DNA of 64,000 bases from Marinibacterium anthonyi. Its GTDB lineage: Bacteria > Pseudomonadota > Alphaproteobacteria > Rhodobacterales > Rhodobacteraceae. A model generated the notes under the pieces. The model had not been told where the DNA came from and made no database searches. It was given only the letters and a program-made list of their open reading frames with translations. The stretch's first letter is position 1. Every line of letters starts with the position of its first letter. This document shows, piece after piece, positions 9,530-33,740 of this stretch. A program made the translations under genes and the position numbers. Where the stretch lies: positions 62,001-126,000 of the forward strand of contig CP031585.1 of assembly GCA_003217735.2 (NCBI GenBank). Reading direction: 5' to 3'.

Positions 9530-10413
9530 AGATCATCCGCCGCAAGGCCGAATTGCGGGACCTGACGCGCGCCTGGCGCCGCGCGGGCGACACCATCGGC
9601 GTGGTGCCCACCATGGGCGCGCTGCACGCCGGTCACCTGAGCCTGGTCGAAGCCGCCAAGGCGCGCGGCGGGCGGGTGATCGTGACGCTGTTCGTCAACC
9701 CGCGCCAGTTCAACAGCCCCGAGGACCTGGCGAAATACCCCCGGACCGAGGACAGCGACGCCGTCAAGCTCGCGCCCTATGACGTGGACGTGCTGTATGT
9801 GCCCGAGCCCGAGGAGATCTATCCCGAAGGCTTTGCCACCACCGTTTCGGTCGCCGGTGTCAGCGAAGGGCTGTGCGGCGCGGACCGGCCGGGGCATTTC
9901 GACGGGGTGGCGACGGTGGTGAGCAAGCTGTTGCTGCAGACCGACGCCGATTGCGCCTTTTTCGGCGAGAAGGATTACCAGCAACTGCAGGTCGTGCGCC
10001 GCCTGGCCACCGACCTGGACCTGAAGACCGAGATCGTCGGCTGCGCCACCATCCGCGAGGACGACGGGCTGGCCATGTCGTCGCGCAACCTGCGGCTGGA
10101 CAGCGAAGCGCGCGGCACGGCCGGGGTGATCCCCCGGGTCCTGACGGGGGCGGCGGCGTCGCTGCAACAGGGCGTGCCGGTCGCGCAGGTGCTGGACCGG
10201 GCGCGGCGCGCGCTGGTGAACGAAGGGGTGGACAGGATCGACTACCTGGAACTCAGGCGCGACCCCGACCTTGCGCCGGTCACAACGCCCGAGCAGCCCT
10301 GCCGGCTGTTCGTCGCCGCCTGGTTGCACGGTGTACGGCTGATCGACAATGTCCCGGTCGGCGCGCGGTCGCCCCGCCTGGCCGACACCGGGCGCAGTGT
10401 CCAGCCGGCCTGA
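9526..10413 (+). CDS. panC: pantothenate synthetase PanC
   Basis: A 295-residue PanC that joins pantoate and beta-alanine with ATP. The nucleotide-binding [13 protein letters not shown] sits at residues 27-39, followed by [35 protein letters not shown] and the KMSKS-like MSSRN lie further on. The ATG overlaps the panB stop (ATGA), so the two enzymes are coupled. The last 15 or so residues (from VPVGARSPR on) are more variable than the rest. With panB it covers two of the three dedicated pantothenate steps; panD and panE are not in the window. Confidence 0.96.
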
Positions 10414-10549
10414 GGCCGGGCCGTCAGTTCGGCGGCCGTCGGCAGCCCGGGGATCGTTCCCCGAGCCGCTGTTTCCTGGCGCCGCCTGACACGGGCCGGC
10501 TGTGCCGGGCCAACCCGATGCGTCCCGCCCCGGACGCCGGATTGGAAAA

Positions 10550-10603
10550 CGCCCGGCCCGGGAGGGGAACCGGGCGCCGGTGCATCACGCGAGGTGATGC
10601 ACC
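10550..10603 (-). terminator. intrinsic terminator after the monooxygenase gene
   Basis: On the minus strand the stem CGCCCGG/CCGGGCG (10550-10576) is followed by TTTTCC. A second perfect inverted repeat, GGTGCATCAC/GTGATGCACC (10579-10603, 5-base loop), spans the stop codon of the monooxygenase gene. The pair lies between convergent panC and the monooxygenase gene and probably ends transcription of the latter. Confidence 0.6.
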
Positions 10604-12384
10604 TCCTGCAGGCCGTAGACGGGGGTGTCCAAGCCCTCCATCCGGGCCTTCAGCTGCAGGGCAAGGTAAAGCGAATAATGCCGCGACTGGTGCAGGTTGC
10701 CGCCGTGGAACCACAGGTTCGGTTGCCGGGTCGGTTTCCACATGTTGCGCTGCTCGCCTTCCCAGGGGCCCGGGTCCTTGGTGGTGTCCGATCCCAGCCC
10801 CCAGACCTTGCCGACCTTGTCCGCGACCTCCTGGCTGATCAGGTCGGCGGCCCAGCCGTTCATGCTGCCGTAACCGGTGGCCATGACGACCAGGTCGGCT
10901 TCAAGCCGGGTGCCGTCGGCCAGCACCACCGCCGTTTCGTCAAAGTGGTCCACCTGGCCCTTCACCAGCTTGACCTTGCCGTCGATGATCAGCTGGCTGG
11001 CGCCCACGTCGATGTAATAGCCCGACCCGCGCCGCAGGTATTTCATGAACAGCCCCGATCCGTCGTCGCCCCAATCCAGGTCGAACCCCGCCTTTTCGAG
11101 CCCCGCGTAGAAATCGGCATCGCGTTCGCGCATCCGGTCGTACAGCGGGATCTGGAATTCGTGCATGATCCGGTAGGGCAGCGAGGCAAAGATCATGTCG
11201 GCCTTTTCGGTCGTCACCCCGCTGGCCACGGCCTCTTCGGAATACAGCGCGCCCAGGCCGATATCCATCAGCGTGTCGGACCGCACGATATGGGTCGACG
11301 ACCGCTGCACCATGGTCACGTCGGCATCCGCTTCCCAGAGCGCGGCGCAGATGTCATGGGCGGAATTGTTCGACCCGATCACGACGACCTTCTTGCCGGT
11401 CCAGGCATCCGGTCCCTCGTGCTGCGAGGAATGCTGGATCGTGCCGCTGAAGCTGTCCATGCCCGGGAACGAAGGCAGGTTCGGCCTGCCCGACATGCCG
11501 GTCGCCAGCACCAGCTGCGTGGGCTTCAGCACCACCTTTTCGCCGTCGCGGTCGACCTCGACCGTCCAGGTGCCGGTGGCTTCGTCAAAGCTGGCCTTCC
11601 GGACCGTCGAGCGGGTCCAGTAGGTCAGCTCCATCACCTTCGTGTACATCTCCAGCCAGTCGCCGACCTTGTCCTTGGGCGTGAAGACGGGCCAGGTGTC
11701 CGGGAACTTGATGTAGGGCAGGTGGTCGTACCAGATCGGATCGTGCAGGCACAGCGACTTGTAGCGGCTGCGCCATTGGTCGCCGGGGCGGTCGTGCTTG
11801 TCCAACACGATGGTCGGCACGCCAAGCTGGCGCAGACGCGCGCCAAGCGCGATGCCGCCCTGTCCGCCGCCGACGATCACGGTGTAGGGCTGCGTGCCGT
11901 AGCCCAGCGAGGCCTCCTCTGCCTCGCGCCGTTCCTTCCAGCTTGCGCGGTTCTTCTGCGCGCCATGTTCGGCCCCCAACGGGCGCCGCCGGCCGCGAGG
12001 TTCCTCGTACCCCTTCAGTTCCTGCAGCGCCGTCAGCAGGGTCCAGATCCGGCCGTTCTTCAGCCGCATCAGCCCCCAGCCCCGGCCCGCCTTGGTTTCG
12101 AACGTGATCCACGCGGTGATCACGCCGCCGTCCTCTGCCGGCGCCTCGCCGTCCTGGATCCGGAACTGGCCCGGCTGCGTCCGGGCCAACTGCTGCGTCA
12201 GCAAGTCGGCCACGCCCTCGGGGCCTTCCACGGTCTTGAGGTTCCAGCTGACGGATATGAGGTCGCGCCAGTAACTGTCGGTGGCGAACAGGGCCGCTGC
12301 GGCGGCCACGTCGCCGGCTTCCAGCGCGGCGTTCAACGTGTCCAGAACCTCCTGGGTCTGGGTGGTGGCGGTCGAGTCAAGCAT
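10585..12384 (-). CDS. SnoaL-like domain fused to a flavin-dependent monooxygenase/oxidoreductase
   Basis: A 599-residue protein in two parts. Residues 1-125 resemble a SnoaL/NTF2-like cone domain. From about residue 165 there is an FAD/NAD(P) oxidoreductase: FAD motif GGGQGG, an FMO-like FSGTIQHS segment (FxGxxxH), and a second Rossmann motif VVVIGSNNSAHDI. The late VMATGYG strand is characteristic of flavin monooxygenases and YUCCA-like enzymes. An AGGAGG ribosome site precedes the ATG. It is preceded on the same strand by an AcoR-like regulator with a set of inverted repeats between them, so it is the likely target. Substrate unknown; oxidation of a small ketone, amine or aromatic acid is possible. 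Confidence 0.75.
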   Translation of the reverse strand: MLDSTATTQTQEVLDTLNAALEAGDVAAAAALFATDSYWRDLISVSWNLKTVEGPEGVADLLTQQLARTQPGQFRIQDGEAPAEDGGVITAWITFETKAGRGWGLMRLKNGRIWTLLTALQELKGYEEPRGRRRPLGAEHGAQKNRASWKERREAEEASLGYGTQPYTVIVGGGQGGIALGARLRQLGVPTIVLDKHDRPGDQWRSRYKSLCLHDPIWYDHLPYIKFPDTWPVFTPKDKVGDWLEMYTKVMELTYWTRSTVRKASFDEATGTWTVEVDRDGEKVVLKPTQLVLATGMSGRPNLPSFPGMDSFSGTIQHSSQHEGPDAWTGKKVVVIGSNNSAHDICAALWEADADVTMVQRSSTHIVRSDTLMDIGLGALYSEEAVASGVTTEKADMIFASLPYRIMHEFQIPLYDRMRERDADFYAGLEKAGFDLDWGDDGSGLFMKYLRRGSGYYIDVGASQLIIDGKVKLVKGQVDHFDETAVVLADGTRLEADLVVMATGYGSMNGWAADLISQEVADKVGKVWGLGSDTTKDPGPWEGEQRNMWKPTRQPNLWFHGGNLHQSRHYSLYLALQLKARMEGLDTPVYGLQEVHHLA

Positions 12385-12496
12385 CGCATCTCCTCCTCTG
12401 CGCGTTTGGCTGAAGAGCAATATCGCGGACATTTCGGCGGACGATCCATCACGAGATGGGGATCGGCCCCGGAATTCGGTTCGCCGCGACGCGGCA

Positions 12497-12524: not shown

Positions 12525-14270
12525 TCAGTTGGGCGGTTGCAACCCGGCCTTTCTGATGCGGCGCAGGACCGTCGAGCGATTGACCCCCAGACGGCGCGCG
12601 GCGCGCGACATGTTCCAGCCGCAGGCTTCCATGACCTGTTCGAGCGATTGACCGGCATGGTCGGCAAGCGGAACGGCATCGACCGGCGCAGGCAGGTCGG
12701 GCTGGTCGATCACGCGCCCGTCGCAAAGGGCCACGGCCACGTCCAGCGCCTGTTCCAGCTCGCGTATGTTGCCCGGCCATTGCCGGCCCAGAAGCTCGGC
12801 GCGGGCCGAGGGCGACAGCCGCATGTCCTCGGGTGCGCGCCGCCACAGCAGCCTGTCCAGAAGCCAGCCCAGATCCTGCCGCCGGCACAGGGGCGGCAGG
12901 CCCAGTGTCGCGCCGACCAGGCGATGGAACAGCGGGCGCGGCAGGTTCAGCGCGCCGGGCGCGACGCATGTGGTCGAAATCACCCGCAGGCATGTTCTGC
13001 CATCCAGCAGGGCGGTCAGGGCGGGTGCCGTGTCCTGCGGCAGGTCTTCGATCCGGCGCAGCAACAGCGTGGTCGGGCCGGTCACGTCGCGGCAGGCCGC
13101 CTGCAACGCAGGCGTCGACAGGCCGGCGCAGTCAATTACCAGGAACCCGCCGGTCGAACCGACCATGTGGATCGCATGCGCCAGCTTGGTCTTGCCGGTC
13201 CCGGTCTCTCCGGTGATCAGCAGGGGCACCTGGGTCTGCGCCAGCCGGGCGGCCTGGGCCAGGACCCGCGCCATCGTGGGGTCACCGCTCGAAAGCCCGG
13301 CCAGGGGCCCGCCGCGCCGGCTGCTGCGCGGGGCGGTGCGCGGCGCCTGCGGGGCGATGGCATGGCCGAAAATCGCGCCGCCGTCGCGCATCTCGATGAT
13401 CCGGTCCTCGGTCGGGCGGTCGCGCATCAGGTCCGGCAGATCGTCGATGGTCAGGCTCAGCACCTCGTCGATGCGCCGACCGATGACGTCCTGCCCGATG
13501 ACATCCTGCCCTTCGGCGAACAGCCGCCGCGCCCCGCGGGTATACCCCAGAACCCGGCCCGCGCCGTCCAGCCGCACCGCGGCCTCGGGATCCACGTCCA
13601 GGAATTCCGGGCTGCCCGACAGGCGCAGCACCCAGTCGCGGCGGCTTTCGGCCATAAGGTTCGCCATCTCGACGCGGCGCGCGGCATTGGTCACCAAGCC
13701 CATGGCCAGGTCCTGGCTGCGCTTTGGCGTCGGCGAGCGCAGCAGCGAGATATCCAGCACGGCGGCCAGCCGCCCGCAGCTGTCGAAGATCGGCGCGGCG
13801 GTGCAGCTGAGCGTCGTGTGCGCGTTGCCGAAATGGTCATCCTGGTGAACCGTCACCGGTTCCTGCGTGACGATGCAGGCGCCCACGCCGCAGGTCCCCA
13901 CCAGATCCTCGGACCAGTTCGATCCCAGGTACAGCCCGGCCGGCCGCAGGTCGTCGACAAAGTGGTCATCCCCGAAGAAGTCGACACAGACACCCTTTTC
14001 ATCCGTCAGCAGCAGCACGTAATTCTGGCCGGCAACCTGCCGGAACAGGCCCTGCAGGCTGGAGCGGGCGGCGCCGATCATCCATTCCGCCTGCTTGCGG
14101 TGATCGCGCAATTCGCTGTCCGTCACGATATGCGCCGGGTCGCGGCGCATCGGGTCCATGCCGTACAGTTCGACGCAGCGCCGCCAGGACGCGGAAACGA
14201 AATTGTCGCGCCCGGTGTGACTGCCGCCCAGCACCCGTTCGATTTCCGCGACGTGCTGATGATCGCTCAT
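12525..14270 (-). CDS. AcoR/DhaR-like regulator with degenerate AAA+ domain
   Basis: A 581-residue regulator with the AcoR layout. Residues 1-60 form a helical entry (SASWRRC), about 70-190 a GAF domain, about 200-300 a PAS-like part, and about 330-510 an AAA+ domain. The protein ends with a Fis-type helix-turn-helix (ACGWNMSRAARRLGVNRSTVLRRI). Walker A is intact (GETGTGKT). The stretch that should hold ESELFG...GAFTGA is missing, and Walker B reads LLLRRIED in place of LFLDE. Known sigma-54 activators need the GAFTGA loop, so this protein probably acts in another way. It sits upstream of the monooxygenase gene, the likely target. Confidence 0.85.
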   Translation of the reverse strand: MSDHQHVAEIERVLGGSHTGRDNFVSASWRRCVELYGMDPMRRDPAHIVTDSELRDHRKQAEWMIGAARSSLQGLFRQVAGQNYVLLLTDEKGVCVDFFGDDHFVDDLRPAGLYLGSNWSEDLVGTCGVGACIVTQEPVTVHQDDHFGNAHTTLSCTAAPIFDSCGRLAAVLDISLLRSPTPKRSQDLAMGLVTNAARRVEMANLMAESRRDWVLRLSGSPEFLDVDPEAAVRLDGAGRVLGYTRGARRLFAEGQDVIGQDVIGRRIDEVLSLTIDDLPDLMRDRPTEDRIIEMRDGGAIFGHAIAPQAPRTAPRSSRRGGPLAGLSSGDPTMARVLAQAARLAQTQVPLLITGETGTGKTKLAHAIHMVGSTGGFLVIDCAGLSTPALQAACRDVTGPTTLLLRRIEDLPQDTAPALTALLDGRTCLRVISTTCVAPGALNLPRPLFHRLVGATLGLPPLCRRQDLGWLLDRLLWRRAPEDMRLSPSARAELLGRQWPGNIRELEQALDVAVALCDGRVIDQPDLPAPVDAVPLADHAGQSLEQVMEACGWNMSRAARRLGVNRSTVLRRIRKAGLQPPN

Positions 14271-14441: not shown

Positions 14442-15449
14442 TTACATCAAGGCCGCCGCGATACCGGTCGGTGCGTCCAGCGGATAGTGGCAGGCGACCG
14501 CTTCGCGATCCGCGCCGCGCAGGACCGGCCGGTCGGTGCGGCACTTGTCGCGGGCAAAGGGGCAGCGCGTGTGAAACTTGCATCCCGGCGGTGGGTTCTG
14601 CGGACTGGGCCGTTCGGACTCGACCAGACCCTTGTCCGGCTTCTTGCCGCCCCCGATCCGTGGCACCGCCGCGCGCAAGGCGGCGGTGTAGGGATGGCGC
14701 GGGGCGGCAAAGAGCTGTTCGGCATTCCCGATCTCGACGATCTCGCCCAGGTACATGACCGCGACCCGGGTCGAAATCTGGCGGACCACCGCAAGGTCAT
14801 GGGCGATGAAGACGTATGTCAGAGACAGTTCATCCCGCAGATCCGCCAGCAGGTTGACGATCTGCGCCTGGATCGACACGTCCAGCGCCGAGACCGGTTC
14901 GTCGAGGATCACCAGTTCGGGGTTCAGCGCCAGCGCCCGGGCGATGCCGATGCGCTGTTTCTGTCCGCCCGAGAATTCGTGCGGGAAACGGTCGGCGTGT
15001 TCGGGGTGCAGCCCGACGCGGGCCAGAAGCCCGCGCACCCGGTCGGCGATCGCGGTTTCCGCCATGTCGGAATGGATGCGGAAGGGTTCGGCCAGCAGGT
15101 CGCCCACGCGCCGCCGCGCATTGAGCGAGGCTGCGGGGTCCTGGAACACCATCTGCATCTCGCGGCGCAGCGGGCGCAGGCGGCGCTGATCCAGATGGGT
15201 GATGTCCTGGCCCTTGATCTCCAGCTTGCCTCCGGAGATCGACTGAAGCCGCATGAGGCAGCGGCCCAGCGAGGACTTGCCGCAGCCGGATTCACCCACG
15301 ATGCCCAGCGTTTCGCCGGGCCAGACCGACAGGGTGACGCCGTTGACCGCATGCACCTTCTTGCGGCGCGCCTTGAAGGGCGATCGGCCGACCAGGTAGG
15401 TCTTGGTGAGGTTGGTGGCCTTCAGCAGGGGGGCGGGCGTGTCGGTCAT
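14442..15449 (-). CDS. dipeptide/oligopeptide ABC transporter ATPase (DppF-like)
   Basis: A 335-residue ATPase of the Dpp/Opp family. Walker A is GESGCGKS, the Q-loop is MVFQDPAASLN, the signature FSGGQKQRIGIARAL, Walker B LVILDEPVSALD and the H-loop FIAHDL. The C-terminal oligopeptide-transporter extension with its Cys pattern (GCKFHTRCPFARDKC) typical of DppF/OppF is present. It is the last gene of the SBP-DppC-DppB-DppD-DppF operon and overlaps DppD by four bases. It helps power uptake of small peptides or amides. The LuxR solo and hydrolase at the head of the locus suggest a signal-related substrate. Confidence 0.9.
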   Translation of the reverse strand: MTDTPAPLLKATNLTKTYLVGRSPFKARRKKVHAVNGVTLSVWPGETLGIVGESGCGKSSLGRCLMRLQSISGGKLEIKGQDITHLDQRRLRPLRREMQMVFQDPAASLNARRRVGDLLAEPFRIHSDMAETAIADRVRGLLARVGLHPEHADRFPHEFSGGQKQRIGIARALALNPELVILDEPVSALDVSIQAQIVNLLADLRDELSLTYVFIAHDLAVVRQISTRVAVMYLGEIVEIGNAEQLFAAPRHPYTAALRAAVPRIGGGKKPDKGLVESERPSPQNPPPGCKFHTRCPFARDKCRTDRPVLRGADREAVACHYPLDAPTGIAAALM

Positions 15450-16424
15450 GCGATGGCCTTCGAATGGGGTGCCGGGGCGGACAACCAGCAGGCAGAGCGA
15501 TGGAACCCGCCGACCATCGGCGGTTGCGCGGCGCAGGCGTCGTGGACATGGGCGCAGCGCGGCGCAAAGGCGCAGCCCACCGGCAGTTCCGACAGCCGCG
15601 GCGGGCTGCCCGGAATGGCGTCCAGCCGCGCCGGGCGGGCGCCTTCAAAGGCCGGGATCGAATGGAACAGCCCCTGGGCATAGGGGTGGCGCGGATCGGC
15701 AAGCACGGCGCGCATCGGCCCCTGTTCGACGATCTTGCCGGCGTACATGATGCTCATGCTGTCGGCGATTTCGGCCACGACGCCAAGGTCATGGGTGACC
15801 AGGATCACCGAGGATCCGAATTCGGCGCGCAGGCGCGCGATCAGGTCCAGGATCTGCGCCTGCACCGTCACGTCCAGCGCGGTGGTCGGTTCGTCCGCGA
15901 TCAGCAGCGACGGGTTGCACGACAGCGCCATGGCGATCACCACGCGCTGGCGCATGCCGCCGGACAATTCGTGCGGGTAGCGTGCCACGACCGAACCGGC
16001 ATCGGGAATGCCGACGGTATCGATCAGCCGGACCGCCCGGTCCGTCGCCACGCGGCGCGACACGCGTTCATGGGCGCGGATCTGTTCGACGATCTGGTCG
16101 CCGATCCGGTGCACCGGGGTCAGGGCGGTCATCGGGTCCTGGAAGATCATCGCCAGGGACTTGCCCCGCACCCGGTCCAGCGCCCGCCGCCCCAGCCCCA
16201 TCAGCTCCTGCCCCTCCAGCCGGATGGAACCGGACAGGACCGCGTTGGGGCTGTCGATCAGCTGCATGATCGACAGCAGCGTCTGGCTTTTGCCCGACCC
16301 GCTTTCGCCGACAAGGCCCATGATCTCGCCCCGGCCGAGCTTGAAGGAGATGCCGCGCACGGCTTCGACCAGCCCTTCCTCGGAGCGGAAGGAAACGGTG
16401 AGGTCCGTGACCTCGAGAAGGGGA

Positions 16425-16435
<11 letters not shown>
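15446..16435 (-). CDS. dipeptide/oligopeptide ABC transporter ATPase (DppD-like)
   Basis: A 329-residue Dpp/Opp ATPase, partner of the DppF-like protein downstream. Walker A is GESGSGKS, the Q-loop [12 protein letters not shown], the signature [15 protein letters not shown], Walker [13 protein letters not shown] and the H-loop VTHDLG. The C-terminal Cys motif ([15 protein letters not shown]) may bind an iron-sulfur cluster, as reported for DppD. The start chosen (MSTDPLLEV) overlaps the permease end by 11 bases; an ATG 12 codons upstream would overlap it more and adds a poorly conserved leader. Confidence 0.88.
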
Positions 16436-17398
<963 letters not shown>

Positions 17399-17399
<1 letters not shown>

Positions 17400-18436
17400 C
17401 AGCCGACCCTCACGGTGGATTTCGGATCCAGCGCGTCGCGCACGCCGTCACCCAGGATGTTGAGCGCGAGCACGGTGATCGCGATGGCGATGCCGGGGGC
17501 CAGCGCCACGATGGGGCGGGAATACAGCAGGCCCTGACCGTCCTGGATGATCGTGCCCCAGCTGGCATCGGGCGGCTGCACGCCGATCGACAGGAACGAC
17601 AGCGAACTTTCGATGATCATCGCCAGCGCCAGGATCAGCGGCACGAAGACGATGATGCGGGGGATGACGTTGGGCATGATGTCCCGGGTCAGGATCCGCA
17701 GGGGCGATGCGCCGATGCCGATGGCGGCGGTGACGAATTCGGCCGACATCAGGCCCTGCACGTGGCCCCGGATGGGGCGGGCGACATACGGAACATAGAC
17801 GATCCCGATGATGAACACCGGCAGCGCCAGAGAACCCGACCCGATGGACCACGGCCCGATGTCGATGCTCTGGTTCAGCAGCACGATGGACAGCGAGATC
17901 GCCAGCAGGAAGATCGGAAAGGCCCAGAGCACATCGAGGATGCGGGCCAGAACGCTGTCGGTGGCGCCGCCGAAGAACCCGGCGGTGACGCCGACGAGCG
18001 TGGCGATCACCAGGCACAGCACCGTGGCGCTGGCCGCGATCATCAGCGAATTGCGCCCGCCATAAAGCATCCGCGCGGCCACGTCGCGGCCCTGGTTGTC
18101 AGCGCCCAGCATGTAGGGGCCGAACGACCAGGTCGGGCCGATGGGCGTCATCCCCAGGCCCAGCCCGGTGGTCGACGCCTCGAGCACCGAACGTTCCTCG
18201 CCGTTCACGGTGATGGTGCCGTTGAGGTTGGTGACGAAGGGATTGGTGCCCGAAACATGGCTGGCATAGACCGGCGCCAGCAGGCAGGCGAGGCAGATCA
18301 GCAGCAGCACCGCCAGCGCCGTCAGCGCGGCGCGGTCGCGGCGAAACCGGCGCCAGGCGGTGGCCCATGGGCTTTCCATGGGACGGGACGCGGCGTGCTC
18401 TGGCGTGGCGTCATCGGCGGGCGCGAGCGATGTCAT
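17399..18436 (-). CDS. peptide ABC transporter permease (DppC-like)
   Basis: A 345-residue DppC/OppC permease. An N-terminal cytoplasmic part with WRRFRRDRAAL precedes the first helix (about 45-65), as usual in the family. A periplasmic loop carries LGADNQGRDVAARMLYGGRNSL, the OppC-N signature, and the EAA loop is SAEFVTAAIGIGASPLRILTRDIMPN. The ATG at 18436 was chosen; another ATG 24 codons upstream extends into a proline/glycine-rich leader that looks untranslated. The gap to the binding-protein gene is 82 bases. Confidence 0.87.
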
Positions 18437-18518
18437 GGGGTCGTCCGAAGGTATTTGGGAAAAAGGAAGCCCGTGCCCGCCGGGAAAGGCGGACACGGGG
18501 ATGGTCAAAGGGCGTGGA

Positions 18519-20177
18519 TCAGTCGTCCAGCCAGGATTGGCTCATGATCCAGTAGAATTGCGGAGAGAAGGTAAAGTTTTTCACCCGTTCCGACACGAAA
18601 TCCACGCGCTTGGGGGTGAACAGCACCGCCGCCGGGGCGGCATCGGTCACCGCGTGATCGACCTGTGTCCACAGCGCGGCGGATTGATCGGGGTCCGTCA
18701 GCGTCAGGCTGGCGGCCTTGTCCATCATCGCGTCGATGTCTTCATCGCAGAAGCCCGAGATGTTCACGGAAGCGTCCGAACCCGGATTGAAGCTGTCGCA
18801 GCCGAACAGGACCTGCAGGAAGTTCGAGGGCGAAGGATAGTCCTGGAACCACTGCGAGACCGAGATCTGCACGTTGTTGTTGGTGTTCTGGATATAGGTG
18901 AACTGGATGTTCTGCGAGATCGGCTGAACCTTGGCGTCAAAGCCCAGCTCGGTCAGCACGTCCTGCAGGTAGACCCCGATCGACCGCGACACCGCCGCGT
19001 CCTCGACCACGATGGTGACCTCTTGTCCGGCAACGCCGGCTTCGTCGATCAGCGCCTTGGCCTTTTCCATGTCCGGTGCGGACCAGGTATCGCCGCCGCC
19101 CGCGGTATAGGGGCAGTAGGGTTCGTAGGACGGGAAGTCCGGCGGCAGGATCTGGCAGGCCGGCTGCGCGAGGTTCTGGCCGCCAAACAGTTTGACAATG
19201 GCGCCGCGGTCGATGGCGTAGTTCACCGCCTGGCGCACGCGCACGTCGTCGAAGGGCGCCAGGTTGGTGTTCATCGGCGCGTACCACATCGCCGTCAGCG
19301 GATGCAGCGAGACCTGGTCGGCATATTGCGTGCCGATTTCGGCCAGGCGATCGACGGGGGGCGGATCGAACATCCAGTCGGCCTGTCCGTTCTGGATCGC
19401 GGTCACCGCGGCCTCTTCGGTCAGGCCGAAATCGTAATCGATCTGGTCGACATAGCCCGCGGGCTGGGCGTCGGCGCTCCATTCCTGGAAGTTCGGGTTG
19501 CGCACCATGCGCAGCCGTTCGTTCGGATTGTAGCTTTCGATCATGTAGGGGCCGGTGCCGGGAATGGGCGTGGTGCCCGCATCCTCGGCCGGGGTTTCGG
19601 CGGGCAGGATCGCGGCATGCGGGATGGCGATCTTCTGCAGGAATTCGCCGTCCGGCTCGGTCAGGTTGATCGTGACGGTGCGCGCATCGGCATCCACCAC
19701 GACACCGCCGTCCAGCGTGCAGTCCGCCGGGTTGGCCAGGCAGGCGTCCGCGCCGACGATCTTGTTGTAGAACGTTCCCGCCGTGGGGCCGGACACCTTG
19801 AAGATGCGCTGGAACGAGGCCAGCACGTCATCGACGCCCAGCTCGCTGCCATCCGAGAAGGTGATCCCGTCGCGCAGCTTGAACACGTAGGTCTTGCCGT
19901 CGTTCTGCGGCTCGGGCAGCGCCTCTGCCAGGTCGGCGACCACGTCAAAGCCGGTCTCGTCGCCGGCCTTGCGGAAGGTCACCAGCCCGTCATACAGCAT
20001 GTATTCCGTCTGGAAGTATTGCAGCGTGTAGTTGATATGCGGGTCGATCGTGCCCGAGGCGGCCTTGGCGAGCAGGCGCATGGTGCCGCCCGTCTCCTGC
20101 GCCGTTGCCGTGCCGCCCGCCGCCGTGGACAGCGCCACGGCAGAGGTCAGCATCGCGGCTGTGAGTCTGAAGCTCAT
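18519..20177 (-). CDS. periplasmic substrate-binding protein of a peptide-type ABC importer
   Basis: A 552-residue SBP family 5 (DppA/OppA-like) protein with a Sec signal peptide (residues 1-26, ending TATAQ). The mature part shows FxxxP-like and DVLASFQRIF blocks, TYVFKLRDGITFSDGS, IPGTGPYMIE, VRQAVNYAIDRGAIVK and a late PKRVDF segment. It is first in the operon, and its promoter carries a lux box at 20300-20319, so uptake should depend on the LuxR solo next door. A GGAGAAACAGGG ribosome site precedes the ATG. The ligand is unknown; in PipR-type loci of plant-associated bacteria the transporter helps import an ethanolamine-derived signal. Confidence 0.88.
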   Translation of the reverse strand: MSFRLTAAMLTSAVALSTAAGGTATAQETGGTMRLLAKAASGTIDPHINYTLQYFQTEYMLYDGLVTFRKAGDETGFDVVADLAEALPEPQNDGKTYVFKLRDGITFSDGSELGVDDVLASFQRIFKVSGPTAGTFYNKIVGADACLANPADCTLDGGVVVDADARTVTINLTEPDGEFLQKIAIPHAAILPAETPAEDAGTTPIPGTGPYMIESYNPNERLRMVRNPNFQEWSADAQPAGYVDQIDYDFGLTEEAAVTAIQNGQADWMFDPPPVDRLAEIGTQYADQVSLHPLTAMWYAPMNTNLAPFDDVRVRQAVNYAIDRGAIVKLFGGQNLAQPACQILPPDFPSYEPYCPYTAGGGDTWSAPDMEKAKALIDEAGVAGQEVTIVVEDAAVSRSIGVYLQDVLTELGFDAKVQPISQNIQFTYIQNTNNNVQISVSQWFQDYPSPSNFLQVLFGCDSFNPGSDASVNISGFCDEDIDAMMDKAASLTLTDPDQSAALWTQVDHAVTDAAPAAVLFTPKRVDFVSERVKNFTFSPQFYWIMSQSWLDD

Positions 20178-20299
20178 CCCTGTTTCTCCTGAAATGCGTG
20201 AGGTCGCATCGTCTGTTTTTGTCCTGCAAGGCGTCTGGCAGAACGCCCGTGCAAGCCGGTCGATGACCCGAAGCATCCGGACCGGAAGGGGCGATGTAT

Positions 20300-20319
20300 A
20301 GCTATCGAATCTTATAGGT
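20300..20319 (-). promoter_or_regulatory. lux box upstream of the ABC operon
   Basis: Read on the minus strand this is ACCTATAAGATTCGATAGCT, a 20-bp imperfect dyad. It matches the classical Vibrio fischeri lux box at 13 of 20 positions and starts identically (12 bases) to the box in front of the hydrolase gene at 21205. It lies about 120 bases before the binding-protein ATG and about 110 bases before the luxR start. Likely binding site of the LuxR solo between them. Confidence 0.75.
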
Positions 20320-20429
20320 CCAGACACTTGCCTCATTGATAGGCAGGCGCACAACGATTGACCGCCCCGGCGTGGCGTGGTCCGGGCGGGAAATTGACAC
20401 TCCGGGGGGCAAGGGCGCAGATACCGTAA

Positions 20430-21194
20430 ATGTTCGACTCGATCCTTTCACAGGAAGCAGCCTTCAGCCCGGGCCTTGGCCTGCACGCTGCCATGACCCT
20501 TGCCGAACCGATCCTGCGCAACGCGGGGTTCGAAGTCGCGGCTTATGACTTCTCTCCGGTCCCGATCTCGCACGAGGGCGCCTTTCTGCTGCCCACGGTG
20601 CTGACGCTGCACGGGGCGCCCGACGACATGGAACGCCTGTGGGTCGAGGACGGGTATTACACCCGCGATCCGGTGATGGAGGCGTCGCTGGCGGTGACGC
20701 GTCCGTTTCACTGGTCGCACACCGGTCCCCAGAGCGAGATCATGCGGCGCACCCTGTCCGAACATCATTCGCCGGTCGTCAGTTACCTGCACGACACGCA
20801 CATGACATCCGGCATCACCGTGCCGCTGCGCACCGCCAGCGGCGCGCTGGCGACCTTTACCGCGATCCGGCTGGACCCGGATCCGCACGGCGAGGCGGCG
20901 GCACATGTCTCGGCCGTGGGCTACCTGGGGCGGCTGTTCCATGACGCCGTGATGCCCGGTTTCGGGCCCAAACAGCTGCGCACCCCCCATGTCAGCCTCA
21001 GCCCGCGCGAACGGCAATGCCTCAAGATGTGCGCGGCGGGGCTGACCACCAAGCAGATCGCCCACGAATTGTCGCGGTCCGAACCGACCGTGACGCTGCA
21101 CCTGGGCAGTGCGGCCCGCAAGCTGGGCGCGCGCAACCGGGTCCACGCGATCGCGCTGGCGGCGCATTACCGGCTGCTGGCAGACGACGCCTGA
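20430..21194 (+). CDS. LuxR solo of the plant-associated (PipR/OryR) type
   Basis: A 254-residue LuxR regulator with an N-terminal autoinducer-binding domain (about 15-165) and a C-terminal GerE helix-turn-helix (LSPRERQCLKMCAAGLTTKQIAHEL, about 192-250). Aligned by hand to TraR, Asp70, Pro71 and Trp85 are kept as D80, P81 and W95. Trp57 is M67 and Tyr61 is W71. These two changes define the plant-associated LuxR solos (OryR, XccR, PsoR, PipR), which respond to plant-derived compounds in place of acyl-homoserine lactones. No luxI is in the window. Neighbours (peptide-type importer and iminopeptidase) and lux boxes in both promoters repeat the PipR layout. Confidence 0.9.
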   Translation: MFDSILSQEAAFSPGLGLHAAMTLAEPILRNAGFEVAAYDFSPVPISHEGAFLLPTVLTLHGAPDDMERLWVEDGYYTRDPVMEASLAVTRPFHWSHTGPQSEIMRRTLSEHHSPVVSYLHDTHMTSGITVPLRTASGALATFTAIRLDPDPHGEAAAHVSAVGYLGRLFHDAVMPGFGPKQLRTPHVSLSPRERQCLKMCAAGLTTKQIAHELSRSEPTVTLHLGSAARKLGARNRVHAIALAAHYRLLADDA

Positions 21195-21204
21195 GCGCAT
21201 CGCA

Positions 21205-21224
21205 ACCTATAAGATTTCCCAGCT
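21205..21224 (+). promoter_or_regulatory. lux box upstream of the hydrolase gene
   Basis: ACCTATAAGATTTCCCAGCT on the plus strand; its first 12 bases and the AGCT end are identical to the box at 20300-20319 in the same orientation relative to the downstream gene. It starts 11 bases after the luxR stop and lies about 80 bases before the GTG of the hydrolase gene. A separate promoter for the hydrolase under LuxR control is the simplest reading. Confidence 0.75.
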
Positions 21225-21304
21225 ACCTCCGCCCGCCCGCGCCGCCGTAGCATGTCGGCGGGCGCCCCGCTGCGGGTGCCACGGGCAAATTCAAGGAGGC
21301 CGGT

Positions 21305-22213
21305 GTGACAACTGACACCACCATTCCCGTCACCGAGGGCGTCAGCCCCTACCGTGGCTACGAGACCTGGTATCGCATCACCGGGGACCTGGGCGCGGAC
21401 AAGCTGCCCCTGGTCATCGCCCATGGCGGGCCGGGCTGTACGCACGATTACGTCGACAGCTTCAAGGACATCGCCGCCACCGGCCGCCCGGTGATCCACT
21501 ACGACCAGATCGGCAACGGCAATTCCACGCGGTTGCCCGAAAAAGGCGCGGAGTTCTGGACCGTCGACTTCTTCCTTGGCGAACTGGACGCGCTGCTGGA
21601 CCACCTGGGGATCAGGGACCGTTATGCGTTGCTGGGCCAAAGCTGGGGCGGGATGCTGGGGGCCGAACACGCCGTGCTGCAGCCCCGGGGGCTCAAGGCG
21701 CTGGTGATCGCCAATTCGCCGGCCTCGATGAAACTGTGGGGCGAGGGCGCGGCACGCTTGCGGGCCGACCTGCCCGAGGACGTGCAGGAGGCGCTGAACC
21801 GGCACGAGGCGGCGGGCACGACGTCGGATCCCGAATACATCAAGGCGCAGGACGTGTTCTATGCCCGCCACGTCTGCCGCATCGTGCCGAACCCGCCCGA
21901 GGTCCAGCGGACCTTTGACATCATGGCCAAGGACAGCACCGTCTACAACGCGATGAACGGACCCAACGAATTCCACGTCGTCGGCACGATGAAGACCTGG
22001 ACGGTCATCGACCGGCTGGATCGGATCAAGGTCCCCGTGCTGGCCTATCGCGGCCATTACGACGAGGCGACGGAAGCCTGCGTTCAACCCTTCCTTGACC
22101 TGATCCCCGACGTGCGCGGCCATGTTTTCCCGAACTCGGCCCATATGCCCCATGTCGAGGAACGCGCCGATTGCATGGCCGTGACCGAAGCCTTCCTGGC
22201 GCAATACGACTGA
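21305..22213 (+). CDS. proline iminopeptidase-like alpha/beta hydrolase (PipA-like)
   Basis: A 302-residue S33-family hydrolase. The oxyanion motif HGGPG is near residue 39, the nucleophile elbow GQSWGG near residue 111, and a C-terminal acid/base pair is likely in YRGHYDE and NSAHMPHVEE. S33 proline iminopeptidases and related amidases cut N-terminal residues or amides from small molecules. The start is a GTG behind an AAGGAGG ribosome site. It follows a LuxR solo and a lux box, the pip arrangement of XccR, OryR and PipR loci. A role in processing the imported signal or peptide is likely but not shown. Confidence 0.87.
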   Translation: MTTDTTIPVTEGVSPYRGYETWYRITGDLGADKLPLVIAHGGPGCTHDYVDSFKDIAATGRPVIHYDQIGNGNSTRLPEKGAEFWTVDFFLGELDALLDHLGIRDRYALLGQSWGGMLGAEHAVLQPRGLKALVIANSPASMKLWGEGAARLRADLPEDVQEALNRHEAAGTTSDPEYIKAQDVFYARHVCRIVPNPPEVQRTFDIMAKDSTVYNAMNGPNEFHVVGTMKTWTVIDRLDRIKVPVLAYRGHYDEATEACVQPFLDLIPDVRGHVFPNSAHMPHVEERADCMAVTEAFLAQYD

Positions 22214-22303: not shown

Positions 22304-23989
22304 CTAGAACAGTTGCAGATCCTTCACGCCGCTGCGGATTTCGGCGTGGTTCGGCATGTTCTGGGTCGCCCCGGGGGCCGATGTCGTGTCCGGCTTCGCC
22401 ACTGGCGGTCTCATCGGCGCCGCCACGCCGAAGGCCGGTTTGTCCAGCTCCCCCCGGATGTCGCGCAGCAGCGTCTTGTGATCCGGCATCGTCTTGAGGA
22501 TCTGTGCAAGGTCGGCTTTCGCGCCCTTCCAGTACTGGAACCAGATCGGTTTCTTCAACGGCCGCAACCGGTCGCGAATGCCGGCGCCATAGCCCGTGTC
22601 ATAGACCTGCTTGCCCAGAAGAACCGTCTGATAAACGCGATAGTCAAACAGCGTGGCGAAGGCGATATCGTGTTCCATCGGCAGGCGGTGCTGCCACAAT
22701 TCCAGGTTCTCGGCCAGCCGGTCCGGTATCTTCATTTCGGTGCGCGCGTCGATCCAGTATTGATCGTCCGTGCGATTGCCCAGCCGATAGTGCAGGCAGA
22801 TGAAATCCAGGACTTCGTCATAAAGCCCGTTCATCCGCTGATTGTAACCGACCCGAAGCGACGGTTCGATGTCCCGGGTGGGAAGGTTCTCTGCGAACCA
22901 GCGCACCGCATGATCGACCATGTGGATCGCGGTGCTTTCCAGCGGCTCGATAAACCCGCCGGCCAGACCGATCGCCACGCAGTTCTTGACCCAGGCATTG
23001 CGCACACGGCCGATGCGCATCGGGATCACGCGCGGTGTCAGGCCCTTGCCGCTGTCCCCCAGCCATTCGAGGTATTCATCCGCCGCCTGATCGTCCGTCC
23101 GATGCGCGGATGAGAACACATAGCCCGTCCCCACACGGTCATAAAGCGGCACCCGCCATGTCCAGCCCGCGCCAAGCGCGGTGGATCGTGTGAGGCTTTC
23201 GATCTTATCCGGATCGGCATGCTTGACCTGCAACGCCATGGCGCGGTCGTTGGGCAGGTAATCCGAATAATCCATGAACGGCTCGCCCAGGGCCTGATTG
23301 ATGATCAGCCCGCGAAACCCGGTGCAATCCATGACCATCTCGATGTCATGGCGGCCCGCGCGTTCCAGCATCAGGTGACTGACGTTGCCCTGTTCATCCA
23401 GCTCGACGGATTGCACCTCGTCCTGGATATGCTCCACCCCGCGCCTGGTGCAGACCCTGGCAAGCATGCCGGCAAATTTCACGGCGTCCAGATGATACGC
23501 ATAGCCGAACCGCTGTTCGAATTCGGGCTGACCCAGCATCCGCGCGCCCTTGCACAGGCGTCCCAGATCATCATGGGGCGCCACGGATTGCGTGAAATCC
23601 CGATCGCCATTGCCGAAGCGCAGGAAATATTCGGCGGCCTCCAACCCTTCCAGCATCTGGCCGTGGGCAAACGGATTCACGTAATCGATGCGATTGCCCT
23701 TGGCGTCCTTGTTCCAATTGCAGAACTTCACACCCAGCTTGAACGACGCGTTGGTCTCGCGAAAGAAATCCCGTTCCGAAATGCCGGCCTGGCGCATCGT
23801 GACCGGCATGCGCGGCACCGTGGCCTCGCCCACACCCACGGTCGCGATATTGGGACTTTCGATCAGGCAGATGTTCGGGCGATCCTTGGGCCCCGACGTG
23901 CGGGAAAACACCATGTCCAGGATCAGCGCCGTCATCCAGCCTGCCGTGCCGCCGCCCACAATGGTGATCTTGCGCAAACGATTATTCAT
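22304..23989 (-). CDS. flavin-dependent (tryptophan halogenase-like) oxidoreductase
   Basis: A 561-residue protein of the tryptophan-halogenase family. The FAD motif GGGTAGWM is at residues 12-19, followed by the family block ATVGVGEATVPRM. FKLG has Lys84 in the place of the catalytic Lys79 of PrnA, and WTWRVPL stands where halogenases have WxWxIP. Key residues for chloramine chemistry are thus mostly kept, with Val for Ile. No flavin reductase or biosynthetic cluster is nearby, so the substrate is unknown. Many alphaproteobacterial relatives sit by TonB receptors and may act on free indoles. The start (MNNRLRK) follows an AGGGGG site. The gene looks less GC-rich than its neighbours by eye. 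Confidence 0.85.
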   Translation of the reverse strand: MNNRLRKITIVGGGTAGWMTALILDMVFSRTSGPKDRPNICLIESPNIATVGVGEATVPRMPVTMRQAGISERDFFRETNASFKLGVKFCNWNKDAKGNRIDYVNPFAHGQMLEGLEAAEYFLRFGNGDRDFTQSVAPHDDLGRLCKGARMLGQPEFEQRFGYAYHLDAVKFAGMLARVCTRRGVEHIQDEVQSVELDEQGNVSHLMLERAGRHDIEMVMDCTGFRGLIINQALGEPFMDYSDYLPNDRAMALQVKHADPDKIESLTRSTALGAGWTWRVPLYDRVGTGYVFSSAHRTDDQAADEYLEWLGDSGKGLTPRVIPMRIGRVRNAWVKNCVAIGLAGGFIEPLESTAIHMVDHAVRWFAENLPTRDIEPSLRVGYNQRMNGLYDEVLDFICLHYRLGNRTDDQYWIDARTEMKIPDRLAENLELWQHRLPMEHDIAFATLFDYRVYQTVLLGKQVYDTGYGAGIRDRLRPLKKPIWFQYWKGAKADLAQILKTMPDHKTLLRDIRGELDKPAFGVAAPMRPPVAKPDTTSAPGATQNMPNHAEIRSGVKDLQLF

Positions 23990-24429
23990 GTGTCCAATCC
24001 CCCTGATTGCTTTGGGGATCAGTTCTATCCCAACTGGTTGAGTGATTGATACCGAAGCTTTCCCGCGCACGGCCAAAGCCCGGAAAGCCGTGACCATATT
24101 GCACATCGCGCGCGGCACCGCACAATTCCGCGCCACGTCAAAGTCGAAAAGCGACGATATTCACCAGAATTCAAACACTTGAGCGGATAGATCAGGCCGC
24201 GAAACCATAAATCAACCACTGCGTTAGCAAGGGGCCATGCAGGGTCACCTGATTGACGTGGCGTATCGTGGACACCTTGTTCATTGAATTCGCGATGCCA
24301 TGCCGCGTGTTCCGCCCCTGACCCCCTGCTGCAGGTCCGGACCCGTTTTCCGGGGCGGGGTTGCGCGGCAGGGGCGGGGTGCGCGGCGGGCACAGCGACC
24401 CCGCGTCCGATGTCATTTTCAACTTGCCC
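23990..24429. other. gene-poor spacer, divergent halogenase/csp upstream region
   Basis: About 440 bases without a convincing gene between the divergent halogenase and cold-shock genes. The left 190 bases are AT-richer than the surroundings and should hold the halogenase promoter. No palindrome or RNA structure stood out. Confidence 0.5.
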
Positions 24430-26704: not shown

Positions 26705-26784
26705 GATAGGGCGGGAACTTGGCATTTGAGAACCGGGATTCTTCGTTGCACTGTCGCAAGGAACGCGACGTCGGAGGACCTACT

Positions 26785-27807
26785 ATGCATTTCGCGCGAT
26801 TTGACCGAATTCGTCTGGCCCACCTGCCGACGCCCCTCGAACCGATGAACCGGCTGTCCGATGCGCTTGGCGGGCCGCGCCTGTGGATCAAGCGGGACGA
26901 TTGCACCGGCATGTCGACCGGGGGCAACAAGACCCGCAAACTGGAATTCCTGATGGGCGAGGCGCTGGCGCAAAAGGCCGACGTGGTCATCACCCAGGGC
27001 GCGACCCAATCGAACCACGTGCGCCAGACCGCGGCCTTCTGTGCCCGGCTGGGCGTGGCGTGCCACGCGATCCTGGAAGACCGGACCGGGTCGAACGATC
27101 CCGATTACCGGCTGAACGGGAACGTTCTGCTGGATGGCCTGCATGGCGCGACCGTCGAACATGTGGCGGCCGACACCGACATGGCGGCCGCCTGCGAAAC
27201 CGCCGCCGCCGCGCTGCGGGCGCGGGGCAAGACGCCTTACATCATTCCCGGCGGCGGGTCGAACCCGGTGGGCGCGCTGGGATATGCCAATTGCGCGCTG
27301 GAACTGGTGAACCAGGCCAACGAGATGGGGCTGAAGATCGCGCGCGTGATCCATGCGACCGGCTCGGCCGGGACACAGGCCGGGCTGGTGACCGGGCTGC
27401 GGGCGCTGAATTCGGGGATCCCGCTTCTGGGGATCGGGGTGCGCGCGCCGAAGCAGAAGCAGGAGGCCAACGTCTTTGCCCTGGCGCAGGCAACGGCCGA
27501 GAAACTGGGCTGCCCCGGCGTCGTGTCCCGAGAGGATGTGGTTGCCAACACCGATTATGTCGGCGAGGGCTATGGCATCCCCAACGATGGCACCATCGAG
27601 GCGATCGAGATGTTTGCGAAATACGAGGGCATCCTGCTGGACCCGGTCTATTCCGGCAAGGGCGCGGCGGGTCTGATCGACCTGGTCCGCAAACAGACCT
27701 TTGACGGGGCCGAGAACATCGTGTTCCTGCACACCGGCGGCTCGACCGGTCTTTTCGGGTATCGGTCGACTTTTGCAGCCCCGCGCGAGCTGACGCTGGT
27801 GTCCTGA
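26785..27807 (+). CDS. cuyA: CuyA-like L-cysteate sulfo-lyase / D-cysteine desulfhydrase family
   Basis: A 340-residue fold-type II PLP enzyme. The Schiff-base lysine is K49 in TGGNKTRK, the substrate loop is [14 protein letters not shown] and the phosphate/C-terminal motif is [12 protein letters not shown]. The family includes D-cysteine desulfhydrase, ACC deaminase and L-cysteate sulfo-lyase CuyA, which makes pyruvate, ammonia and sulfite. The opening MHFARF...[11 protein letters not shown] and the neighbouring HpsN-like gene favour CuyA, though substrate cannot be settled by reading. The start is set by GGAGG before ATG; an in-frame ATG 22 codons earlier lies in the promoter. Confidence 0.75.
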
Positions 27808-27809
27808 AC

Positions 27810-28535
27810 ATGGTCCGCGTGATCGGCATTCTGGGGGGCATGGGCCCCGAAGCGACGATCCTGATGATGTCGCGGCTGCTGGCGGCCACGCCGGCCCGGG
27901 ACGATGCCGATCACATCCCGCTGCTGGTCGACAGCAACACCCAGGTGCCGTCGCGCATCGCGCATCTGATCGATGGCACCGGCGAGGATCCGACGCCGGT
28001 GCTTGTCGGCATGGCGGAAAAGCTGGTCGCGGGTGGGGCCGGGGTGCTGGCCATCCCCTGCAACACGGCGCACAGCTATTACGGCGCGATCGCGGGCGCC
28101 GTGCCGGTGCCCGTGCTCAACATGGTCGAGCTGACGGCGCGCCGGGTCGCGGATCTGCACCCCATCGGCCCGGTCGGGATACTGGCGTCGCCCGCGGTCG
28201 AGGTCACAGGGGTCTTTGCCGATGCCTTCGCGGGGCTGGGGCGCAAGGTGATCTTTCCCGCCGACCGGGGCCGCATCCTGTCGGCGATCCGCGCGATCAA
28301 GGCGGGCCGCGCCGATGACGCCCTGCCGATCCTGCACGACGCCCGCGCCGAGCTGGCCGAAGCAGGCGCCTGTGTCGCCGTGCTGGGGTGTTCCGAATTC
28401 TCGATCGTCGCGGGGCGCCTGGATGGCGCGCCGCTGGCCCTGATCGACAGTCTCGACGTGCTGGTTCAGGCCTGCGTGGCGCACGCGACCACCGACGATT
28501 TCCGTTCAAACCAGGGAGCCGATTTGGCCCGATGA
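27810..28535 (+). CDS. aspartate/glutamate racemase family protein
   Basis: A 241-residue Asp/Glu racemase superfamily protein. The N-terminal GGMGPEAT (residues 9-16) is typical of aspartate racemases. The two catalytic cysteines are in AIPCNTAH (about residue 83) and LGCSEF (about residue 196). It starts 2 bases after the CuyA-like gene and overlaps the HpsN-like gene by four bases, so it belongs to that unit. Cysteate is a sulfonate analogue of aspartate; a cysteate racemase that feeds the lyase is a reasonable guess, not a known function. Otherwise aspartate or a hydantoin-type substrate is possible. Confidence 0.82.
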   Translation: MVRVIGILGGMGPEATILMMSRLLAATPARDDADHIPLLVDSNTQVPSRIAHLIDGTGEDPTPVLVGMAEKLVAGGAGVLAIPCNTAHSYYGAIAGAVPVPVLNMVELTARRVADLHPIGPVGILASPAVEVTGVFADAFAGLGRKVIFPADRGRILSAIRAIKAGRADDALPILHDARAELAEAGACVAVLGCSEFSIVAGRLDGAPLALIDSLDVLVQACVAHATTDDFRSNQGADLAR

Positions 28536-29861: not shown

Positions 29862-30845
29862 TCAGACCGCTTCGGCGTTGTGGCAGGCGCTCAGATGTCC
29901 GGGGCCCATGTCGCGCAGTTCGGGCACCTCGGATGCGCAGCGGCCGGTGGCCATGGGACAGCGGGTGCGGAAAAAGCAGCCGCTTGGCGGGTCGATGGGG
30001 CTGGGGACATCGCCGCTCAGCACCACGCGGTCGCTGTGGGCGGCGGGATCGGGCAAGGGGACCGCAGACAGCAGCGCCCTGGTGTAGGGATGGCGGGGCT
30101 GGCGGAACAGGGAATCGCGATCGGCGATCTCCATGATGCGGCCCAGGTACATGACGGCCACCCGGTCGGACATGTGTTCGACCACGGCCAGATCGTGCGA
30201 GATGAACAGCAGCGCCAGCCCAAGATCCTTTTGCAGGTCCATCAACAGGTTGATGATCTGCGCCTGCACCGACACGTCCAGCGCCGAAACCGCCTCGTCG
30301 CAGATGATGATGTCGGGGTCCGACGCCAGCGCCCGGGCGATGCAGATCCGCTGCCGCTGCCCGCCCGAGAACTGGTGGGGCATCCGCGCCATCGCCTCGC
30401 GCGGCAGGCCCACCTTTTCCAGCAACTCGCCGACACGGGTTTTCCGCGCGGCCCGTGACCGCGCCAGGCCATGGCTGCGCAGCGGTTCGGCGATCAGCTC
30501 CTCGACACTCATGCGGGGGTTGAGGCTCGAAAACGGGTCCTGGAAGACCACGTTCAGCCGCTTGCGGACGGGCTTCATCCGCGCGCGGCTCAGCCCGTCG
30601 ATCCGCGCGCCGTCAAGGGTGATTTCCCCTTCGGTCAGCGGGATCAGCCGGGCGAGGCACTTGCCGACCGTGGACTTGCCGCAGCCGGATTCACCCACCA
30701 GCGACAGGGTCTCGCCCCGGGCGATGTGGAAGCTGACGTCGCTGACCGCGTGGACGGCCTTGTCGGATTTCGAGAACAGGCCGCCGCTGATGGGGAACCG
30801 TTTCACCAGGTTGCGGACTTCGATCAGATGCGGGCTGGTGGTCAT
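29862..30845 (-). CDS. dipeptide-type ABC transporter ATPase (DppF-like), second system
   Basis: A 327-residue Dpp/Opp ATPase. Walker A is GESGCGKS, the Q-loop VVFQDPFSSLN, the signature FSGGQRQRICIARAL, Walker B IIICDEAVSALD and the H-loop FISHDLAVVEH. The C-terminal CFFRTRCPMATGRC motif is present. Walker B reads DEA where the family usually has DEP. It is last in a six-gene operon led by the M81 peptidase gene and overlaps DppD by four bases. It converges on the HpsN-like gene with a 55-base gap. Confidence 0.9.
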   Translation of the reverse strand: MTTSPHLIEVRNLVKRFPISGGLFSKSDKAVHAVSDVSFHIARGETLSLVGESGCGKSTVGKCLARLIPLTEGEITLDGARIDGLSRARMKPVRKRLNVVFQDPFSSLNPRMSVEELIAEPLRSHGLARSRAARKTRVGELLEKVGLPREAMARMPHQFSGGQRQRICIARALASDPDIIICDEAVSALDVSVQAQIINLLMDLQKDLGLALLFISHDLAVVEHMSDRVAVMYLGRIMEIADRDSLFRQPRHPYTRALLSAVPLPDPAAHSDRVVLSGDVPSPIDPPSGCFFRTRCPMATGRCASEVPELRDMGPGHLSACHNAEAV

Positions 30846-31834: not shown

Positions 31835-31836
31835 GG

Positions 31837-33683: not shown

Positions 33684-33740
33684 GGCTTTGCGACCCCGGT
33701 GGGAAGGTGGCGGCGCCCCGCGACGGGGGCGCCGGGCGCG

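Follow-up and report, generated by a model that had tools for sequence, protein, structure and literature searches.

How far the importer belongs to sensing in the LuxR solos of plant-associated bacteria (PAB) is an unsettled question, and it bears directly on a locus of Marinibacterium anthonyi described here. The locus lies in a 64,000-nucleotide stretch, hereafter the window, which covers positions 62,001 to 126,000 of contig CP031585.1 (G000:C1:62001-126000) in a genome of 6.81 Mb and 13 contigs. A luxR gene stands in it between a peptide-type ATP-binding cassette (ABC) operon and a gene of the proline-iminopeptidase (PIP) family, with a candidate LuxR box ahead of each unit. Which compound does such a locus answer? 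Our analysis indicates that it is probably a LuxR solo circuit of PAB type, from the OryR/PipR clade, whose LuxR module was joined to a PIP-importer unit with a different importer, and that its signal is an imported compound, peptide- or amide-like in nature.

The PAB type of the locus is already known, and the importer exchange, the units that lack LuxR and a changed pocket residue are new. The XccR/OryR/PsoR/NesR group is characterized in the available text of PMC4338825 by the substitutions W57M and Y61W and by pip and peptide transporter neighbours, all of which the window shares. The same text names Rhodobacter, Mesorhizobium and Citreicella; the group was published in 2015 and reappears as subgroup 0 in the accessible part of a 2023 paper (PMC10134790). 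Such descriptions, as far as the available texts extend, do not separate importer types, and the psrR map of Kosakonia names importer genes of yet other kinds. Importer exchange among PAB loci was not found in the literature searched, which is not proof of its absence. An inducing compound is on record for PipR, as are compounds of root exudate for PsoR; elsewhere the accessible sources speak of an unknown plant signal.

The regulator

The LuxR protein (20430-21194, + strand, 254 aa) was recognized by profile matches to Autoind_bind (75.5 bits) and GerE (67.3 bits), and alignment places its Met67, Trp71, Asp80, Pro81, Trp95 and Gly128 at TraR positions 57, 61, 70, 71, 85 and 113. A preliminary description, made from the letters of the stretch, had read the first two residues in this way and had seen D80, P81 and W95 kept; the alignment confirms it. 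The marks of an N-acyl homoserine lactone (AHL) receptor, Trp57 and Tyr61 in TraR numbering, are thus replaced by Met and Trp. Among 35 LuxR rows with neighbours, Met57 is found in 31 and Trp61 in every one. The Met57 mark is not universal, because four loci with Aap-type importers (L069-L072) carry Trp there (W/W, not M/W).

A third pocket position also differs. The specificity patch given in the available text of PMC3821632 comprises residues 57, 61, 73, 101 and 105, of which Q73 and L105 are described as rather conserved in, and specific for, PAB solos, although that text does not present them as defining the group. Leu105 is kept in the window LuxR. Position 73 is Gln in 32 of the 35 rows and Met in three, namely the window (Met83), G263 and G255 (L032 and L033). 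Since the LuxRs of Mesorhizobium and Aureimonas that come with the window-type importer retain Gln73, the change to Met arose later or separately, not with the importer.

A LuxR tree, which had been proposed as a check on the assignment, agrees with it. Among 38 rows, with loci bearing Aap-type importers as stand-ins for OryR, XccR, PsoR and PipR, the window LuxR lies inside a PAB group of 27 rows (support 80/83) and apart from the sampled AHL-type LuxRs. It groups with two family relatives (100/98), then with Mesorhizobium (99/95) and then with Aureimonas (96/94). Ten near-identical loci were thinned from the trees. The omitted rows were L090 and L092, with open reading frames (ORFs) below 200 aa, and L022 of Mesorhizobium temperatum, where luxR (10001-10425) lies in two overlapping pieces; this last locus keeps its PIP, which stayed in the PIP tree, and has no window-type importer in the fetched stretch. 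At L073, a PAB-like LuxR (9482-10240; M/W, Gln73) has neither PIP nor importer found beside it.

Could the protein nevertheless be a receptor for AHLs, the cell's own or foreign ones? Its AlphaFold model is confident, with a predicted local distance difference test (pLDDT) score of 91.7, and its top structural matches are RhlR, QscR and SdiA, which would fit such a receptor, but the model informs on the family fold alone. The genome also holds two LuxI proteins, one paired with a luxR and one further, and three LuxR proteins with an autoinducer-binding domain. A search of the whole genome for luxI, also proposed earlier, found neither copy linked to the window luxR: the nearest is about 0.96 Mb away and the other about 2.4 Mb. 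The second LuxR of the genome adjoins a LuxI and keeps the W/Y pair, in contrast to the window protein; its nearest plasmid match is from Tritonibacter (53.6%). The loss of Trp57/Tyr61, the distance to the nearest LuxI, the tree position and this W/Y counterpart together make an AHL receptor very unlikely, and we rejected that identity on the pocket residues and the tree. The third LuxR adjoins an apparent tsf, read by eye; PMC4338825, in its available text, lists this solo context for Roseobacter and its relatives. Together with the Tritonibacter match, the tsf context points to a source organism that probably belongs to the Rhodobacterales. One LuxI-family gene (G000:C1:2444459-2444968; L005, L038) has no adjoining LuxR, and its neighbour reads by eye as a histidine kinase.

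The distribution of this LuxR is patchy. A match to its profile at E ≤1e-40 was obtained in nine of 394 genomes of the family, five of them (own included) at ≤1e-98 and four at 1e-44 to 1e-51; the pocket was read in two of these four, and neither has the M/W pair. No match was seen in the other two genomes of the genus. At the same 1e-40 threshold, five of 385 genomes drawn from the class match, own included, although two of these reach just 1e-45 to 1e-48, as do 12 of 398 drawn from the phylum, own included. Up to six LuxR and four substrate-binding protein (SBP) candidates were scored per genome in these searches, so that extra copies may be missed. This distribution suggests horizontal transfer.

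The LuxR boxes

The two boxes read ACCTATAAGATTCGATAGCT (- strand, 20319-20300) and ACCTATAAGATTTCCCAGCT (+ strand, 21205-21224) and were located by pattern and matrix scans. The first lies ahead of the importer operon and also 110 bp ahead of luxR; the second lies ahead of the PIP gene. The listed ORF of the SBP (18519-20354) opens at an upstream TTG, but translation probably starts at the ATG at 20177, after which a signal peptide is apparent by eye, and the first box is therefore outside the SBP gene. Box centres are 90.5 bp from the PIP start and 132.5 bp from the SBP start; for PipR, the accessible account gives 71.5 and 91.5.

The preliminary description had presented these sites as 20-bp dyads before both units. 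Their positions, their orientation towards their own units and their mutual identity (16 of 20 positions) hold up, but the symmetry is imperfect (6/10 and 5/10 pairs), so the case for the boxes rests on conservation and not on symmetry. The shared pattern, which the two boxes fit by construction, occurs nowhere else in the 64-kb window at up to three mismatches (mean of shuffles, 0.01). The genome-wide pattern scan that had been proposed returned six matches, the two boxes without mismatch and four sites with three, and a reversed control pattern returned eight; at two mismatches or fewer, only the two boxes remain in 6.8 Mb.

A weight matrix built from 15 boxes of ten loci with an Aap-type importer was scanned on the window and on the other loci. 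It ranks the two boxes first and second on both strands of the 64 kb (29.8 and 18.5 bits), with the next independent site at 3.6 bits, and only one of 30 column-shuffled matrices had one of its two best sites in either intergenic region. Where an Aap-type locus had contributed no box to the training set, results varied: the expected places hold the two best sites in L074 (19.5 and 14.6 bits), both are weak in L042 (11.4 and 7.6 bits), and L061 gives 18.9 and 8.8 bits, the latter ranked third. On the strength of the genome-wide pattern scan and of the matrix trained on other loci, we rejected a chance origin of the boxes.

The window-type importer occurs in 18 loci: the window, two family relatives, G046, Aureimonas and 13 of Mesorhizobium type (one titled only 'Bacterium'), which are close kin and not independent cases. 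The expected places hold the two best matrix sites in 16 of these 18, the window included, and both sites exceed 14 bits in nine. Aureimonas has one strong and one weak site (27.5 and 7.2 bits). In four importer operons without LuxR, the best site reaches at most 4.7 bits. A promoter scan of 20150-21350 found none, with 0.1 expected, and is uninformative for that reason. Taken together, the M/W marks, the adjacent PIP gene, the lack of a linked luxI, the tree and the conserved boxes bear out the earlier placement among PAB-type LuxR solos.

The importer

In the PipR-PipA-AapA-F system of Pseudomonas sp. GM79, accessible accounts describe the box ahead of pip as proven and that of the operon as potential. 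The window resembles this system in having a LuxR solo of the PAB clade with a divergent peptide-type ABC operon on one side and pip on the other. It differs in lacking AapA, in an importer that is not an Aap orthologue, in an SBP gene that comes first instead of last, and in Met instead of the usual Gln at position 73.

The operon (14442-20177, - strand) encodes an SBP of the SBP_bac_5 family that is not an AapF orthologue (18519-20177) and, by profile matches, an OppC-type permease (17399-18508), an OppB-type permease (16425-17399), an OppD-type ATPase (15446-16471) and an OppF/DppF-type ATPase (14442-15449). Sixteen loci with an Aap-type importer served for comparison, five from plasmids (R. 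etli, Sinorhizobium, Pannonibacter, Rahnella and Klebsiella) and eleven from genomes. The SBP gene is last in all 16, and a second PIP-like gene heads the operon in 14 (L040 and L074 are the exceptions); in the window locus, no AapA peptidase or second PIP was found and the SBP gene heads the operon. Against the five plasmid loci, the window SBP is 24-26% and the permeases 29-34% identical. Matched to AapF (7kz8), the window SBP scores 52.6 bits, rank 36 of 45 PDB sequences, of which 8upi is the top (186.7 bits), whereas the canonical SBP of R. etli scores 790.1 bits and ranks first. By these identities and scores, the window importer is not an Aap importer, and the AapF scores rule out a strict PipR/Aap assignment.

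The hydrolase has been better kept. The PIP protein (21305-22213, + strand, GTG start) scores 246.9 bits against TIGR01250, above the curated cut-off of 167.65, and Ser113, Asp253 and His280 are placed by motif as its catalytic residues. PIPs beside LuxR in the 16 Aap-type loci are 59-71% identical to it, the 71% coming from a cut stretch of 131 aa. Profile matches thus confirm that LuxR lies between a peptide-type ABC operon and a PIP gene. The PipR layout claimed earlier stands as the order ABC operon, LuxR and pip, but not in the strict sense, since the SBP gene comes first and AapA is absent; the claim of a complete set fails on these two counts, on the importer that is not Aap and on Met at position 73. 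Presumably 7a6g is a proline amide hydrolase and 8upi a protein from Mesorhizobium with a small amino acid derivative; neither was given weight. An acetamidase/formamidase gene adjoins pip in R. etli (L043 10777-11691).

These differences bear on whether the locus is an orthodox PipR circuit that senses plant N-(2-hydroxyethyl)-2-(2-hydroxyethylamino)acetamide (HEHEAA) or a close ethanolamine derivative. The LuxR clade, PIP and boxes are alike, and leaf macerate, peptone, a tripeptide and HEHEAA all act through PipR. According to the accessible accounts, however, the PipR response to leaf macerate, peptone and the SHS tripeptide needs AapB; in the available part of a review, the transporter is required for HEHEAA import, and a close homologue of the HEHEAA binding protein in another species cannot bind HEHEAA. 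In the window, AapF and AapA are absent and Gln73 is replaced by Met. PsrR, a PAB relative, is also silent with HEHEAA, a weak point that weighs little because PsrR answered nothing tested, rice root macerate included. With a pocket residue changed and without the importer that PipR needs for its response, the locus is unlikely to have HEHEAA as its ligand, and we consider the orthodox circuit improbable. The earlier proposal of a host-derived amide or ethanolamine-like ligand does not follow from the locus.

Pairing of importer and regulator

If the importer is not that of PipR, how did it come to stand beside a LuxR of this clade? In G046 (L035), from the window's family, an SBP and permeases of window type (63%, 56% and 64% identical) lie beside a LuxR and a PIP that group with the rhizobial Aap clade (LuxR, 100/99; PIP, 90/94 within 95/90). 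The ATPase part of G046 sides with neither type: identity is 47-48% with the window pair and, over 581 residues, 41% with the fused protein of R. etli. A single clade of LuxRs bearing the window-type importer is rejected (approximately unbiased test, p-AU 0.0005) because of the rhizobial-type LuxR of G046, a result that calls for caution in view of long branches and a grouping picked after the identities had been seen. Given the G046 pairing and the rejected clade, either the importer was paired with the LuxR-PIP module at least two times, or regulator and PIP were swapped beside it. In G273, a third and poorly matching importer type lies downstream of PIP. L034 is labelled 'aap' by best match only, and its importer fits neither type well (26% for the SBP). 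Of the canonical SBPs, the SBP tree includes only those of L040, L043 and L034.

The Mesorhizobium-type loci (L011-L021, L023 and L024) and Aureimonas (L039) have the same genes as the window, with SBPs 71-75% identical and sites at both places, but they keep Gln73, unlike the window. In Aureimonas, PIP and importer are on exchanged sides of luxR.

The importer also occurs without the regulator. A search of 290 genomes of the family (E 1e-120) found eight window-type SBP genes in seven genomes, own included: four adjoin LuxR and PIP, three adjoin PIP without LuxR and one, a second copy in G255, lacks PIP and adjoins a gamma-glutamyltranspeptidase gene. The three without LuxR (G284, G166 and G077) have the order PIP-SBP-permease-permease-ATPase-ATPase, with the G166 operon cut by a contig end. 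They share the window's PIP (56-63% identical) and importer gene set (SBP 63-65%) and differ from it in having neither a LuxR of the window's kind nor boxes. No LuxR of PAB grade was detected in these genomes (best profile match, E 1e-18; G166 is 71% complete), and their PIPs fall outside the LuxR-linked PIPs in the tree (25 rows, 100/97). These operons support the existence of a peptide- or amide-using PIP-importer unit without LuxR.

Such units open another explanation, in which the regulator serves nutrition alone. The locus would induce the use of peptides or amides in response to their presence, whatever their source (protein breakdown in soil or sea, for example), and would have no part in host signalling. 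Upstream of the LuxR-less operons lie genes for an amidase and an M20 peptidase (G077), an acetamidase/formamidase (G166, L084 545-1489) and an RraA-like protein and an M32 carboxypeptidase (G284), and peptone and a tripeptide activate PipR. Host association is favoured instead by the named carriers of the subtype, Mesorhizobium and one Aureimonas, and by PsrR, another PAB member, which has a root endosphere phenotype. We regard a purely nutritional role as a real possibility, somewhat on the doubtful side; it is compatible with a PAB-type circuit that answers an imported compound and is narrower on ecology.

Proposed circuit

In the circuit that we favour, the SBP would capture an extracellular peptide- or amide-like compound and the five-part ABC transporter would bring it into the cell. 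This compound, or the cell's product of it, may then bind LuxR, which would occupy the two boxes and activate the importer operon and the PIP gene. PIP would hydrolyse the compound or a product thereof, such that import acts as a positive loop and hydrolysis as a brake. The wiring, consisting of LuxR, two boxes and two units, is supported by the sequence. For activation, for import ahead of sensing and for ligand hydrolysis we rely on analogy with PipR, for which the accessible accounts describe a needed importer, a needed box and peptidase feedback. We infer a peptide- or amide-like class for the ligand; a host origin of the compound is not readable from the sequence.

Several observations weigh against this circuit. 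The support of the PAB group is moderate and some branches of the tree are long. The matrix was trained on boxes that had been picked by their match at eight outer positions, patterned on the window and lux boxes; an independent test thus comes from the inner box positions alone. Both sites are weak (4.4-9.6 bits) in eight of the 18 loci with a window-type importer, all eight among the 13 of Mesorhizobium type, and two of these weak loci (L012 and L023) miss the top-two test; the lowest such sites are at chance level, given that the LuxR-less operons reach 4.7 bits. A structure model of the SBP, considered for reading the ligand, was too poor (pLDDT 57) and was left unused.

The same LuxR, box and PIP with non-orthologous importers constitute a natural experiment on whether signal choice lies with the importer. 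The operons that lack LuxR suggest in turn a metabolic unit made up of PIP and importer; what has been viewed as signalling with a host would then be substrate induction. We tentatively propose, at slightly less than even likelihood, that one LuxR-box module was laid over pre-existing PIP-importer units and that the importer, not LuxR alone, sets the compound sensed. A non-Aap importer would have been paired at least two times in the subclade, and the pocket would have followed in members of the window's family (Gln73 to Met), giving a LuxR for a peptide or amide other than HEHEAA.

Neighbouring genes

A gene for a tryptophan-halogenase family protein (22304-24136, - strand, 426.5 bits) is convergent with the PIP gene. 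After the importer operon comes a regulator of GAF/sigma54-activator/Fis type (12525-14270, - strand), and next to it a flavin monooxygenase-like gene (10585-12393). The window also contains a second peptide-type ABC set, with an SBP_bac_5 gene at 33741-35318, which is adjoined by genes for a PALP enzyme and an Asp/Glu racemase (26719-28535, + strand; 29862-35318, - strand).

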